Positions 37,038 through 42,343 of a DNA stretch of 64,000 nucleotides are shown here, piece by piece; positions within the stretch are counted from its first letter, which is position 1, and each line of letters starts with the position of its first letter. Location: the NCBI RefSeq assembly GCF_014217855.1, contig NZ_CP059059.1, forward strand, positions 1,922,001-1,986,000. The letters run 5' to 3'. The translations under genes were made by a program, and so were the position numbers. The notes beneath the pieces were generated by a model. It saw nothing but the letters and a program-made list of their open reading frames with translations. It did no database searches and was not told the DNA's origin. This DNA is from Synechococcus sp. HK01-R (GTDB lineage Bacteria > Cyanobacteriota > Cyanobacteriia > PCC-6307 > Cyanobiaceae).

Positions 37038-38921
37038 ATGCAAGCACCAGTTAGCGAACCTCTGGTGATCTGCGGGATGGGTTCTCTGGGCCAGTTGTGC
37101 CTCGAGAGGCTCCGTCCATTTGATGTTGATCTGATCTGTGTTGATTGCAAGCACCCAGCCTGGAGATCAGAAGAGTTAAAGGCCCAATATGAGGATCAGC
37201 TAATCCTCGGGGATATGCGTCTGTCATCAACGCTCAAACGAGCACAGGTTGGCCGTGCTCGAAGCGTGCTTTTACTGAGTTCAGACAGCACGATCAATCT
37301 CGAGGCAGCTCTGCATGTCAGAATTCTGAACACAAAGGCAATCATCGTTGTCCGATCTTCGAGCCAACAGGAATCACTCAATGACCTACTTGAAGCCAGA
37401 ATTCCAAATCTGAGAGTTGTCGATCCACTCTTGCTCAGTGCAAGTGCAATTGCCCAGTCACTGAGACCTGAGCAAGTTCCAGCTACATTTACTGTTTTCA
37501 AGCAACGAATCACACTTCAGCATCATGATACACCTGTCGATTTTTCTTCGAAGTACTTATCACGAGTATTAAAGCTGGGTATCAGTACGGATGAAGATCT
37601 AAATGATCAACTAGTGCTCACTCTTAACCATCAAACAAATGTCTATGGCCGAGGTAAAGCTACGAGATCGATGAGACAGGTTATCCGAAGATTATCTGTC
37701 ATTATTCTCGACTTTGGCCGATATTTAAACCATAGGGTCAAGAATATTCAATCATGGGACCTGCTTATCATAACCGCTCTAATACTTCTCATTTCTGGAA
37801 TACCTTATTTTTCCAATGGCCATAGCATTCAATCTGGATTTTTGATCACCCTGGCACTGTTAAAAGGAGAGTTTGTCGATCCAGTCAATGTGTTGATTGA
37901 GCATTCTGGCCAAGGCATTACTTCCTTGTCACCATTTGCACTCATTCTTGCTGTAACCTATGCGAACCTAGGCACAATTCTAACTGCTGCAATTGTCGCC
38001 CTTATTCTCGATCAATTGCTCAGTAGAAGGCTGGGTCTCAGTCCGCGCCGTCGACTCAGCACTGGTTCGAGAAGTGTGATCTTGCTTGATGGAGGATCGC
38101 TTGCAGACTTGGTGAGTTCACAGCTTACAGCTGTGGGAATCGAGGTGCTAAGACTTTCCAGCCAGGATGATAGTCCAAATCTATCGACTAGCCAACTTCA
38201 ACGATGGACTCGACATACACAATTTGTTGGTGCAGGATTGCTCTCAACAGATCTTCTGAAGAATTTACGTCTAGCCCTTGAATGGCAAATGGTTTTCACC
38301 TCAAGCAGAGTTGCAATTATTACGAAGGATCTTGATGCTGGAGAGAGCCTTGAAGACCTACTGGGAGGTATCAGCTTTATTTCTACACTTGATCTTGCGG
38401 CTGACGCGTTTGTTGCAACTGCCTTTGGTGAACAAGTTGAGGAGGTGAGACGAATTAATGGACGCACAGTTTTGCTCGTAAGGTATCGTATTGACGAGCA
38501 TGACACATTAGTTGGTTCAACCATTTCGCGTATTCAAGAGGGTTTTGGCGTTACAGCTCTCGCATTACGTCGAAGCCATGATCGGCATGCCAAGATCTTT
38601 CCCTCACTTGAGTCAAGGCTCATTCAGGATTCAGAGCTTTTCGTTTTGGCTGATTTGCAGGGGCTGCGTCGCATTGAACTTAATCAATGCGATCCACCTC
38701 GCTGGCGACTGAAGTATCAGGTTCAGTGTCGATCTGCTCAAAGTTTCGATACGCAACAGGTCTTGGCACGACATCTGGGAATGGCACCAGGTCAATTCGC
38801 CGCATCAATGGATGGACTCTGGCATTACACCCCCACGATTGATCGAGACTTAGCGAAGCAACTTCAACATGAACTTCAGCGAATGGCTGTGCGCACTGAG
38901 CTCATCGAGACAAAGGGTTGA
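37038..38921 (+). CDS. Membrane protein with RCK/TrkA-N-like domains on both sides of a channel-like core
   Basis: A 627-residue protein of unusual order: an N-terminal nucleotide-binding domain (residues 8-130; VICGMGSLGQLCLERL then VDCKHPAW), a second cytosolic region, three membrane segments at about 235-330 (LLIITALILLISGIPYF; FLITLALLKGEF; FALILAVTYANLGTILTAAIVALIL), then another Rossmann-like domain (from 345; SRSVILLDGGSLADLVSSQL) and a C-terminal RCK-like domain. The region between the second and third segments has the layout of a two-TM K channel but no TVGYG filter. It lies 24 bases after ggtA and shares its direction. Ion specificity and activity are unknown; K or Ca flux tied to osmotic stress is a guess. 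Confidence 0.6.
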   Translation: MQAPVSEPLVICGMGSLGQLCLERLRPFDVDLICVDCKHPAWRSEELKAQYEDQLILGDMRLSSTLKRAQVGRARSVLLLSSDSTINLEAALHVRILNTKAIIVVRSSSQQESLNDLLEARIPNLRVVDPLLLSASAIAQSLRPEQVPATFTVFKQRITLQHHDTPVDFSSKYLSRVLKLGISTDEDLNDQLVLTLNHQTNVYGRGKATRSMRQVIRRLSVIILDFGRYLNHRVKNIQSWDLLIITALILLISGIPYFSNGHSIQSGFLITLALLKGEFVDPVNVLIEHSGQGITSLSPFALILAVTYANLGTILTAAIVALILDQLLSRRLGLSPRRRLSTGSRSVILLDGGSLADLVSSQLTAVGIEVLRLSSQDDSPNLSTSQLQRWTRHTQFVGAGLLSTDLLKNLRLALEWQMVFTSSRVAIITKDLDAGESLEDLLGGISFISTLDLAADAFVATAFGEQVEEVRRINGRTVLLVRYRIDEHDTLVGSTISRIQEGFGVTALALRRSHDRHAKIFPSLESRLIQDSELFVLADLQGLRRIELNQCDPPRWRLKYQVQCRSAQSFDTQQVLARHLGMAPGQFAASMDGLWHYTPTIDRDLAKQLQHELQRMAVRTELIETKG

Positions 38922-38981: not shown

Positions 38982-39152
38982 ATGACCACCTTGATCTGGA
39001 TACTCTGGAATTCGCGGTCTGATGTCCTGCTCTGCATCATGCTGCAGACAACCTTCCTTCTTGGAGGTGTTCTTATCCGATCCGTCAGTGCATCCGATGG
39101 ATTGCCAACCAATGCTGCCCCCACTCTCCACACCCAGACTCATGATCGTTGA
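38982..39152 (+). CDS. Possible 56-residue membrane peptide
   Basis: A short open frame between the RCK protein and corA, too small for routine gene calling. It encodes MTTLIWILWNSRSDVLLCIM followed by a hydrophobic stretch LQTTFLLGGVLI and a polar tail. It ends 8 bases before the corA ATG, and it is in the same frame as the RCK gene, whose stop lies 60 bases before its ATG. One or two membrane segments are plausible. No strong ribosome site is seen and homologues are unknown to me; it may be chance. Confidence 0.35.
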   Translation: MTTLIWILWNSRSDVLLCIMLQTTFLLGGVLIRSVSASDGLPTNAAPTLHTQTHDR

Positions 39153-39160
39153 TTGATCTC

Positions 39161-40297
39161 ATGACTGAACAAACATCAAGAAGTAGTGGCTATCTCGACA
39201 GTATCCCTGAACCGATTCCCCTTAGTGAACGACCAGGTGAGTGGCCAACTCAGTTATTTGTCCATGGTGGTCGGGCTCCAGTGAGCTGCCGAGTTTTGTT
39301 GATTGAACAGGAAACAACCCAATGGATTAACGTTAATGATAGAGGTGTCCTACAGCAGCTTAAAGTGCTGAACGAACCCCTATGGATTCAGATACGTGGA
39401 TTGGCAGATCCAGAATTAATCAAATCCTACCTTGATGTTCTAGATATTGAACCAGAATTTTGGCCATTGTTGCTAACAGCGCCGCAACAAGCACGTATTG
39501 ATTCATTTCCCTCCGCTGTTCTAGGAGTCCTCCATCAGTTCTCTTTGGCATCCAACCCCTCACATCTTATTAGTGAGCAGTTCACGATTCTTTTAGCCCA
39601 CGGTTTTCTGATTACAATTCAGGAGAATCCTTTGCTTGAATTCCGTGAACTTGAGCATTGGATTCACTCTCTCAAGTCAACAGAAGATTATCTTGATCTT
39701 GATAATTTATTCCATTATTTAATCGACGAGATTCTGGACACGCATTTGCCGATGCTTGAAAGCGTACGATCTTATCTTGATGAATTGGAGGAAGCCGCAT
39801 TATTGAGACCAAAGCCCTCGGTTCTTAAGCGTGCATTCACACTGAGACGAAATCTTCGCAAGGCAAGAAGACAGTTGTGGCCCTTAAGAGATCATTTAAT
39901 CTATCTTCTACGTAAAAGTCATCGACTACTTGGACCTGTTGCTCGACAAGGCCTCCATGACATGGCTGACCATGTCAATATTTTACTAGAGATCGGCGAT
40001 CGAATTCTCCATCAGGCCGACGCCGTTAATGATGCTTACATGGCAAGCACTGGCAATCGCATGAATCAAATCATGAAGACACTGACAATTGTCAGCACAA
40101 TATTCGCTCCATTAACGTTCATCGCTGGAATCTATGGGATGAATTTTGAAAATATGCCAGAATTGAAATGGTCTTTTGGATATGCATACTCTCTTATTTT
40201 GATGAGTGGTATAGCTGCTTTCCAGGCTTATTTCCTTTGGCGCCGGGGATGGTTCCAAGACTGGACAGGCGGCCCTGACAGTCGATCTGATCGATAA
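39161..40297 (+). CDS. corA: CorA-family Mg2+/divalent metal channel
   Basis: A 378-residue protein with the CorA layout: large acidic cytosolic N-terminal domain, long helices (VLKRAFTLRRNLRKARRQLWPLRDHL), then two C-terminal membrane segments with the family-defining GMN motif (IAGIYGMNFENMPE) between them. Transports Mg2+ or related ions across the cytoplasmic membrane. The frame opens at a TTG at 39149, but the ATG at 39161 is used here. Its position between an RCK protein and a phosphate-binding protein is notable. Confidence 0.9.
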   Translation: MTEQTSRSSGYLDSIPEPIPLSERPGEWPTQLFVHGGRAPVSCRVLLIEQETTQWINVNDRGVLQQLKVLNEPLWIQIRGLADPELIKSYLDVLDIEPEFWPLLLTAPQQARIDSFPSAVLGVLHQFSLASNPSHLISEQFTILLAHGFLITIQENPLLEFRELEHWIHSLKSTEDYLDLDNLFHYLIDEILDTHLPMLESVRSYLDELEEAALLRPKPSVLKRAFTLRRNLRKARRQLWPLRDHLIYLLRKSHRLLGPVARQGLHDMADHVNILLEIGDRILHQADAVNDAYMASTGNRMNQIMKTLTIVSTIFAPLTFIAGIYGMNFENMPELKWSFGYAYSLILMSGIAAFQAYFLWRRGWFQDWTGGPDSRSDR

Positions 40298-40340: not shown

Positions 40341-41396
40341 TTGACACACATGGCAGTAATGGCCATCAACTCGAGAACCATCCCGCTCACTCTGCTCAGC
40401 GGCTGCTCGTTCGCTCTTTGTCTCTCTGCCTGGCCTTCCTCCGCGTCAGAGGTCATCGCGATTAAAGGGTCTAGCACCGTGTATCCAATTACGGCCCGTG
40501 CAATTAAACAATTTCAGCAAACTTCTCAGGGTCGCTCCGTTCAGTTTTCTCTGAAGGAAACAGGCTCATCAGCTGGATTTCGTGAGTTCTGTTATGGCAA
40601 GATCCCAGTAGCTAATGCATCTCGACCAATCTCCAAAAAAGAGATTAGTGCCTGCACCTCAAACAATATTCGGTTTATCGAGCTACCGATTGCTTTCGAT
40701 GCAATTACTATAGCTGTGAATAAAAACAATAATTGGGTCACCTCAATCACCACGAAAGAGCTGCAACGCCTTTGGAATAGGAAGGCATCTGGATCTGTGA
40801 CCCGCTGGAATCAAGTTAATCACGACTTTCCTGACCGACCCATCAAGCTCTGTGGACCAGGCAAGGATTCCGGCACCTATGATATTTTCAATAAGGCCAT
40901 TAATGGTTCATTAAAAAACTCCCGTTCGGACTACACCGCTAGCGAGAACGATAATGTGTTAGTGGATTGCGTTATCAATAATCAGAATGCGCTTGCTTAT
41001 TTTGGTTTTGGCTACTTTAAGAAAAACAGTTCAAAGCTGAGGGCATTGAAGGTCGTAAGCCCCAACGGTAATCCCGTGGCCCCTTCAATTGCAAATGTAC
41101 AAAAGGAGCTTTACCAACCTCTGTCGCGCCCTCTCTTTTTGTACGTTAACGATCGAATGCTCAACAATGACAAGAGTCTTAGAAACTTTGTAGCCTTTTA
41201 TCTTCGCCGTGCTGAATCATTAGTGAAGGAAGCGAATTACATCCCTCTGCCCTCGCGAACCTATCGTCTTGTCGAATCAAAGTTGTATCGTCACATTCTA
41301 GGGAGTTCTTTTTCTGGGACAATTCCCGTTGGCCTGACTATTGGTCAGGTGCTTGAGCAAAGCTTTGATCAACACAAGAAACCTGCTTATCGTTAA
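40341..41396 (+). CDS. sphX: Phosphate-binding protein, PstS/SphX family
   Basis: Periplasmic binding protein of the PstS superfamily. A signal peptide (about 1-36, ending near SSASEV) precedes IKGSSTVYPITARAIKQF (phosphate-binding SSTV), ETGSSAGFREFC and GPGKDSGTYDIF. SphX proteins are secondary phosphate-binding proteins of cyanobacteria, usually phosphate-regulated; calling this SphX rather than PstS is inference, because the pst operon is 15 kb away. Several in-frame ATGs make the start uncertain by up to 9 residues. Three or four cysteines in the mature part could form disulfides. Confidence 0.82.
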   Translation: MTHMAVMAINSRTIPLTLLSGCSFALCLSAWPSSASEVIAIKGSSTVYPITARAIKQFQQTSQGRSVQFSLKETGSSAGFREFCYGKIPVANASRPISKKEISACTSNNIRFIELPIAFDAITIAVNKNNNWVTSITTKELQRLWNRKASGSVTRWNQVNHDFPDRPIKLCGPGKDSGTYDIFNKAINGSLKNSRSDYTASENDNVLVDCVINNQNALAYFGFGYFKKNSSKLRALKVVSPNGNPVAPSIANVQKELYQPLSRPLFLYVNDRMLNNDKSLRNFVAFYLRRAESLVKEANYIPLPSRTYRLVESKLYRHILGSSFSGTIPVGLTIGQVLEQSFDQHKKPAYR

Positions 41397-41416: not shown

Positions 41417-42343
41417 ATGCAATTGGCTCCTATCACAATTGGTGAGTTTAGTCACTCTTTAATTCAAGTACAATTGCATCGCATTGTTTCTCTTCAAGTT
41501 AATGTTATCGAAGATCGAGATGTCGAGCCATTGCACCAGCTCCGCGTCAGCTTGCGGCGACTTCGTTGTGTGCTCTTGCAATTTGAGCCGTTTCTTGACC
41601 TACCGAATGGTGTTACAGAACGAAGAGTTTCCCGCCTATGTTCATCACTAGGACTCACCAGAGATCTTGATGTTCTACAGGAACTTGTTTCCGGTTCATT
41701 TTCAACGATGCTTGGTGGTAAAACTGATGAAGAGCTTGATGCTCTGAAGAAGGCTATTGGTCGTGAGCGTAAACGAGCAGCCACCGATATGAAACAGTTT
41801 TTACGAAGTTCTACCTATCTTAAGTTTATCTCACGTCTTCAAGGCTGGACTCGCAAACCCAAATTCCACCATTCTGCATCCCAGCCAATTGACGACTGGG
41901 TCGATGAATTGATTACCCCTTATCTATCTGCTCTGTGGTTGCATCCTGGCTGGCATCTTGATCCGATCAGCCACTCGATCGAACTCCATTCATTGCGAAG
42001 CAAGATTAGACGTACTCGCTATATGCTTGAGAACATCAAAACTCGCTGTAGATCTGACCTTGATATTCATCTTCGTCAATTCAGAAGACTGCAAGAACTT
42101 CTTGGAGATCTTCATGATCTCCATGTTTTTGATCATTTGATCAATGAATCAAGAATTAGAATCTCTGAGAAGCAAAAGAATCACGTGCTTCACGCCAGCC
42201 ATCAACAACAAAAGCAGATTGTCACTCTTTGGGATGTCCATAGTCGGCGTCTTTTAAGATTATCGACGCGACGCGTACTCAGTCGACGCATTTCAACTCA
42301 TCCAACAAAATATCTGCATGTACGCGTGACCTCGACTGAATAG
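41417..42343 (+). CDS. CHAD domain protein
   Basis: A 308-residue protein dominated by a CHAD domain: conserved His/Arg helices such as VEPLHQLRVSLRRLRCVLLQF, RLCSSLGLTRDLDVLQELV and SLRSKIRRTRYMLENIK with basic clusters that bind polyphosphate in other CHAD proteins. It has no ThTPase/CYTH domain. It starts 20 bases after the SphX-like gene and probably shares its transcript, which fits a link to polyphosphate granules. The direct function is unknown; the family is structural or targeting rather than enzymatic as far as known. Confidence 0.85.
   Translation: MQLAPITIGEFSHSLIQVQLHRIVSLQVNVIEDRDVEPLHQLRVSLRRLRCVLLQFEPFLDLPNGVTERRVSRLCSSLGLTRDLDVLQELVSGSFSTMLGGKTDEELDALKKAIGRERKRAATDMKQFLRSSTYLKFISRLQGWTRKPKFHHSASQPIDDWVDELITPYLSALWLHPGWHLDPISHSIELHSLRSKIRRTRYMLENIKTRCRSDLDIHLRQFRRLQELLGDLHDLHVFDHLINESRIRISEKQKNHVLHASHQQQKQIVTLWDVHSRRLLRLSTRRVLSRRISTHPTKYLHVRVTSTE

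Follow-up and report, generated by a model that had tools for sequence, protein, structure and literature searches.

The gene at positions 37,038 to 38,921 (+ strand) of the window, the 64,000-nucleotide stretch of Synechococcus sp. HK01-R that was analysed here, encodes a protein with a predicted two-transmembrane P-loop pore lying between two RCK domains, in which the position of the K+ channel filter TVGYGD reads KGEFVD. The reading that best fits these data, and which we hold at about even confidence, is that of an RCK-gated P-loop cation channel with K+-channel-type ancestry, whose K+ filter has been replaced in picocyanobacteria by a fixed loop and whose selectivity has changed, perhaps towards divalent ions. 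A channel with new selectivity had been one of the options raised in a first-pass annotation of this DNA and, at the same even weighting, is still the best of them. The domain order, predicted pore fold, missing K+ filter, loop conservation, purifying selection and genomic island are each directly supported by the results below.

The open reading frame is genuine, with an ATG start, 627 aa and a TGA stop. Ratios of dN/dS ranged from 0.08 to 0.28 over 11 pairs (dS being saturated in two of them), and a chance or decayed frame was ruled out by the homologues, the loop conservation and these ratios. In one relative (L098:6683-8604, genome G162) the gene is split into two overlapping frames of 286 and 431 aa, which is either a pseudogene or a sequencing error. 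The layout given below draws on a full-length AF2 model, a monomer built on an alignment of 65 sequences taken from the window and the loci of relatives only.

37038-38921 (+), channel gene, 627 aa, with the order RCK1, TM1, pore loop, TM2, RCK2, RCK_C, small C-terminal domain (ORF; AF2 model pLDDT 89.2, pTM 0.83)
37062-37625 (+), RCK1, residues 9-196, Rossmann glycine motif CGMGSLGQ intact (Pfam TrkA_N; fold matches to TrkA, KtrA and MthK RCK; motif conservation)
37737-37811 (+), TM1, residues 234-258 (AF2 model; pore-only model resembling P-loop channels)
37827-37862 (+), pore helix, residues 264-275, with G267, T271 and L275 in 33/33 sequences including the window (AF2 model, alignment)
37863-37880 (+), filter-position loop K276 G277 E278 F279 V280 D281 replacing TVGYGD, with G, E and D in 33/33 sequences including the window (alignments)
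37875-37907 (+), short second pore-side helix, residues 280-290 (AF2 model, block 281-290 pLDDT 91)
37932-38033 (+), TM2, residues 299-332, with G312 and T316 invariant in the 33 sequences (AF2 model, alignment)
38070-38423 (+), RCK2, residues 345-462, Rossmann glycine motif degenerate, DGGSLAD (fold match to the second half of TrkA; motif comparison)
38433-38678 (+), RCK_C, residues 466-547 (Pfam TrkA_C 480-547 below cut-off; AF2 model)
38703-38909 (+), small C-terminal alpha/beta domain, residues 556-624 (AF2 model)

Pfam TrkA_N matched residues 10-112 above its cut-off in a single stretch (E 9.9e-12) and TrkA_C matched residues 480-547 below its cut-off (23 of 27 bits). Ion_trans_2, Ion_trans and Castor_Pollux gave no match to the protein at E<=1, in a search where the HMMER filters discard many weak matches. 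The RCK domain that follows the pore was missed by TrkA_N, yet is clear in the AF2 model. Against NCBIfam and PDB sequences even the best matches were weak, and these lay in the first RCK region; in the Pfam, NCBIfam and PDB sequence searches no family spanning the entire protein, and no strong match to a described family with the same domain order, was found.

RCK domains before and after a three-segment core had been proposed from the sequence, and this arrangement was recovered, the first domain by TrkA_N and the second by the model. Both RCK folds are present in the monomer, and residues 7 to 550 superpose on residues 1 to 451 of TrkA (4j9u, 4j9v; VIA-align Z 23.1, rmsd 4.8, 387 residues), so that the two RCK halves together share its fold. 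The next match for the RCK part was GsuK (4gx0-4gx5; Z 19.4, rmsd 4.4, 340 residues), and the gating ring of CASTOR was also among the fold matches (Z 18.8, rmsd 12.9). TrkA is a soluble subunit, whereas here a two-TM pore stands between the RCK halves in one chain; going by the model, the protein resembles a TrkA-type pair of RCK domains that has a pore set between the halves. GsuK is an RCK-gated K+ channel in which the pore comes first and is followed by two RCK domains (chain 21-116 and 127-555), while in the present protein RCK1 (9-196) precedes TM1 (234), which departs from the pore-first order of GsuK and Slo. MthK and BK/Slo resemble it in joining a pore to RCK domains and appear among the fold matches, but they have RCK after the pore and a TVGYG-type filter. 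The suggestion of two nucleotide-binding domains stands for RCK1 but is weaker for RCK2, where the glycine motif is DGGSLAD in the window protein as against mostly GLGRVGQ-like in other cyanobacterial rows. The RCK1 motif is retained and the RCK2 motif degenerate in the clade that carries the KGE loop, and nucleotide binding at RCK2 is therefore doubtful.

In the AF2 model the core consists of TM1 (234-258), a re-entrant pore helix (264-275), a loop (276-279), a short helix (280-290) and TM2 (299-332), in agreement with the three segments originally described. When the pore was modelled separately (pLDDT 87.4, pTM 0.66), all of the best 50 matches listed in the fold search were P-loop cation channels, among them GsuK (Z 9.2, rmsd 2.4 over 86 residues), MthK (Z 8.8) and NavAb (Z 8.5); NaK headed the list (Z 10.2), but with an rmsd of 13.3. 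The predicted fold, two TMs enclosing a re-entrant pore helix and its loop, is thus that of the superfamily of tetrameric P-loop cation channels. Foldseek alone gave nothing for the pore model at E<=0.001, its best match being a CNG-mimicking NaK mutant (E 0.087). NaK and CNG-type pores therefore head both lists; CNG filters contain Gly-Glu, but NaK and CNG-type pores have no RCK and another filter sequence. K+-type and Nav-type loops both occur in the fold lists at similar Z, which leaves the choice between them undecided, and filter geometry lies beyond the reach of a monomer model.

The filter position of the window protein reads KGEFVD and not TVGYGD, within the stretch LLKGEFVDP. Across 33 picocyanobacterial sequences, the loop at residues 276-282 varied less than any other segment compared, its mean column entropy being 0.54 where the pore helix had 0.98, TM2 1.06 and RCK1 1.14 and the overall value was 1.61, and G277, E278 and D281 were present in all 33, the window included. 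In a wider alignment with 40 rows of this type, G277 and D281 were again universal and position 278 was E in 39 rows and D in one (L097), while position 276 was more variable (K 26, L 11, Q 2, N 1). The consensus in the picocyanobacterial lineage is mostly L-(K/L)-G-E-(F/Y)-(V/L/I)-D.

The main rival to the channel reading, which we regard as rather unlikely, makes the protein a membrane sensor or a regulatory subunit that conducts nothing: a dead pore would anchor a nucleotide-binding RCK ring that regulates CorA, a K+ channel or another transporter. The canonical filter is gone, a hydrophobic loop with a Lys could plug the pore, and the genome, a single 2.48 Mb contig, keeps a separate RCK K+ channel of 409 aa whose filter reads TIGYGE (L031), one of three TrkA_N proteins in it together with the protein studied here and a 260 aa frame (L032). 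A dead pore would, however, hardly need its filter loop to be the most conserved segment compared, or G312 and T316 of TM2 to be invariant, and the Lys is replaced by L, Q or N in 14 of the 40 rows, which weakens the idea of a Lys plug. The conserved loop could also serve assembly or sensing, and the Lys that adjoins the Glu in the majority of rows could work against the passage of cations.

The origin of the loop was examined in an alignment of 103 rows, in which five kinds of filter were distinguished. The picocyanobacterial (K/L)GE(F/Y)(V/L/I)D type accounts for 40 rows, and a GG type found in other cyanobacteria for 45, of which 28 read GG(Y/F)GD. The other 17 GG-type rows vary (GGYAD, GGYDN, GGYSD, GGFSD, GQYGE, GDYGE, GSYDI; for example L017, L064, L069, L085 and L087), so the GG-type clade may also be losing K+ selectivity. 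The third kind, LTGGYGD, lies within the GG type and belongs to a 752 aa relative (L118:470-2725, - strand) whose TGGYGD is one residue off TVGYGD and which is a possible intermediate. The fourth, TGAGGxE, is found in 12 rows of a cyanobacterial family of about 570 aa (for example L108:481-2214), and canonical filters make up the fifth (L119, L120, L121 and L031); L105 and L122 have filters outside all five kinds. Family members of the TGAGGxE kind (L108-L117) form a second RCK-pore family with a non-canonical filter, one met often among the cyanobacterial genomes searched. The filter GGYPD was seen in a further relative, on a contig labelled uncultured Desulfococcus (L205:3453-5513), possibly through transfer or mis-binning.

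It had been pointed out that RCK domains follow the pore in known K+ channels, and the window protein does have the order RCK-pore-RCK, but this order is not peculiar to proteins that lack the filter. L119 has two TrkA_N stretches (best 15-123), Ion_trans_2 above cut-off at 265-341, a TTTGFGD filter and then a second glycine-rich Rossmann-like start; RCK-pore-RCK therefore occurs with a K+ filter too.

The placement of LLKGEFVDP where TVGYG would be expected was upheld by profile comparisons. Using hhalign, the pore profile of the KGE type matched that of the GGYGD type (E 3.4e-12) and the GGYGD type matched canonical pores (E 4.9e-9), and from these two links it follows that LLKGEFVDP occupies the expected TVGYGD position. 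The homology to canonical pores runs by way of the GGYGD-type relatives, because the direct match between KGE and canonical profiles was weak (Prob 73.5, E 3e-5) and its alignment ended before the filter. One ABC permease, used as a control, gave E 0.29. Ion_trans_2 matched 10 of 55 family pores (best E 4.2e-4), and against PDB sequences the pore profile retrieved only weak matches to two-pore-domain K+ channels (best E 2.5e-4).

In a quick tree of 81 rows from which the pore-loop columns had been removed, a single branch separated the 35 KGE rows from the rest (SH-aLRT 100), and the KGE type needed one change, while the GG type needed two and the two canonical rows also two; L118, L119 and L121 were long branches whose positions are unsure. 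Judged from these sequences, the loop is fixed within its clade and looser in the sister clade, and that it arose out of a K+ filter is the most likely sequence of events, although not proven. A tidy series of filters was considered and is weakened by the variability of the GG-type clade itself and by the long branch of the intermediate L118.

This ancestry bears on the possibility, which we consider improbable, that the protein is a divergent K+ channel still conducting K+ through the backbone carbonyls of an unusual filter. Pore fold and ancestry are those of K+ channels, sister cyanobacterial proteins mostly read GG(Y/F)GD (28/45 rows), and in the MAFFT alignment D281 aligns with the D of GYGD and position 279 with its Tyr (Y 21, F 17 and L 2 of 40). 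In the same alignment, however, other residues stand in place of the T, the V and the two glycines of TVGYG, position 278 is acidic in 40/40 rows, and Ion_trans_2 does not match the window protein.

The gene lies in a small island, the other members of which are as follows.

39149-40297 (+), CorA Mg2+/Co2+ transporter, a recurrent neighbour of the channel; the listed start is TTG and the true start may lie downstream (Pfam CorA 1.2e-54; NCBIfam TIGR00383 above cut-off; synteny)
40341-41396 (+), PstS-family substrate-binding protein (TIGR02136 above cut-off; synteny)
41417-42343 (+), CHAD-domain protein (Pfam CHAD 4.6e-39; synteny)

Among 31 genomes of the genus, CorA was found in seven and the channel in five, with CorA in 5/5 channel genomes and 2/26 others (Fisher p 1.2e-4, kinship ignored); on a dxs tree of the genus (30/30 rows) both genes need only three changes each, too few for an independent test. 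Among 400 genomes of the family, 70 had the channel, 124 CorA and 64 both, so that CorA accompanied the channel in 64/70 genomes as against 60/330 of the others (kinship ignored). The adjacency of CorA hints at a partnership with it, in keeping with a non-conducting sensor, but six of the 70 channel genomes had no matching CorA (G106, G122, G155, G176, G282 and G328).

Of 53 distinct loci, 23 had CorA next to the channel, and three arrangements were seen. It lies 150-263 bp downstream in three loci (PstS present, CHAD in 1/3), 2.2-2.6 kb downstream behind a pyruvate-kinase-like gene in 15 (PstS present, CHAD in 14/15), and 516-571 bp upstream in five (CHAD in 4/5), where a phytase-like gene follows the channel in 5/5 loci and PhoX in 3/5. 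In the remaining 30 loci CorA was not found within the stretch examined, some stretches being short. It was found in 1/39 loci of other filter types. Neighbours were sought by tblastn (E<=1e-15, coverage of 30% or more) with proteins of the window and of a few loci as queries, a scan that distant CorA or PhoX genes next to other family members could escape. The 15 loci with a pyruvate kinase barrel gene directly after the channel are of Cyanobium type (L129:10929-12641 and similar), and at L095:9057-12217 phytase-like and PhoX alkaline phosphatase genes lie downstream of the channel, a further hint of a connection with phosphate. Promoter-like sites were no commoner than expected by chance (3 vs 3.6) and terminator-like sites uninformative (4 vs 2.3, sd 1.4).

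Upstream of the channel are genes for a glycosyltransferase-20 enzyme and an ABC importer, which we take to be ggpS and ggt. It had been proposed that the channel adjoins an osmolyte operon, and by extension it could be an osmotic- or ionic-strength-gated part of it, co-induced with the glucosylglycerol system. The ATPase gene of the importer is separated from the channel by only 24 bp in the window, the same order is found in G018, G010 and G026, and the channel of L098 and L099 likewise follows ggt-type genes. The two are distributed very differently, however, the importer's substrate-binding protein being present in 28/31 genus genomes (24/24 good ones) and the channel in 5/31 (5/24). In Cyanobium-type loci the channel recurs with the pyruvate-kinase-like, CorA, PstS and CHAD genes, and no ggt substrate-binding protein gene was found within the stretch examined; an ABC ATPase with 46% identity to that of the window lies about 7-8 kb from the channel in L137 and L139.

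Comparison of the site between the ggt ATPase gene and dxs points the same way, since ggt is retained in five relatives from which the island is partly or wholly absent. Channel, CorA, PstS and CHAD are all present in the window and G018, and CHAD is missing in G010 and G026. G006 has CorA and PstS, as does G029 with CorA interrupted; G009 has only residues 101-340 of PstS, and G019 and G024 have none of the four. We read this as stepwise loss of the island. In G029 a stop interrupts CorA (L239:3363-4438) and no channel was found there, as if the island were being lost. From distribution and synteny, the osmolyte operon thus seems to neighbour the channel without being its partner, and we consider membership of the channel in it very improbable.

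A pore of P-loop fold, a conserved pair of acidic residues in its filter loop and an RCK pair resembling TrkA accord best with the preferred reading, that of a ligand-gated cation channel no longer selective for K+. The tetramer, ligand, gating, conduction, ion and physiological role described next are inferred. Four subunits would probably form one pore, each contributing a TrkA-like RCK pair to a cytosolic ring, with one RCK on either side of the pore in the chain. A ligand of RCK1, most likely a nucleotide, would shift the ring so that TM2 opens at its conserved glycine, G312 being a possible gating hinge. Rings of E278 and D281 would bind the permeating ion. Such a channel would not be K+-selective; it would probably pass Mg2+/Ca2+, or be a weakly selective cation channel that binds divalent ions. 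Divalent ions are the first guess because of the acidic residues, the precedent of CASTOR and the CorA, PstS and CHAD neighbours, beside which a likely role would be to balance divalent cations with phosphate or polyphosphate.

The plant nuclear channels CASTOR, POLLUX and DMI1 are likewise RCK-gated, lack TVGYG and have an acidic filter residue (PMC6697748). As described in the part of that article available, CASTOR is Ca2+-selective with the filter AD265(S/A)GNHA and becomes inactive when D265 is neutralised, but it is eukaryotic and has four TMs followed by RCK (PMC6697748). The present protein falls outside the CASTOR/POLLUX family, with no Castor_Pollux Pfam match at E<=1 and a different filter. 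A more specific version of the main reading, which we offer tentatively and well short of even confidence, is that a bacterial RCK-gated channel turned Mg2+/Ca2+-selective through the acidic KGE(F/Y)VD loop, as a prokaryotic parallel to CASTOR that arose independently and is placed beside CorA in a phosphate and divalent-cation island, and that the filters of its relatives (TVGYGD, TGGYGD, LGGYGD, looser variants, KGEYVD) may record the steps.

A search of open-licence papers found no description of an RCK-pore-RCK family with the KGE filter. In the available part of a survey of picocyanobacterial strains, a cluster named 'putative potassium transporter' (CK_00002470) is given for 43/67 freshwater, 7/17 brackish and 8/48 marine strains, a distribution resembling that of the channel gene (PMC9361551). 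The same part of the survey gives the corA cluster CK_00057330 as absent from marine isolates (PMC9361551); marine genomes in the present genus set carry a CorA, which may be of another cluster. Elsewhere in cyanobacteria, at least five K+ channel homologues are listed for Synechocystis, of which Sll0536 stands without functional data in the portion available (PMC13099474), and c-di-AMP and K+ transport have been treated in S. elongatus (PMC5897029, in the portion available).

Channel biology has long asked how a filter for K+ can acquire a different selectivity. In this family varied filters occur naturally on a common scaffold, with an acidic end state that is fixed, and the proteins, which are bacterial, could be expressed and recorded. 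If the preferred reading is true, RCK gating would gain a non-K+ case besides CASTOR, and the picocyanobacteria would gain a candidate divalent-cation or phosphate-linked channel.
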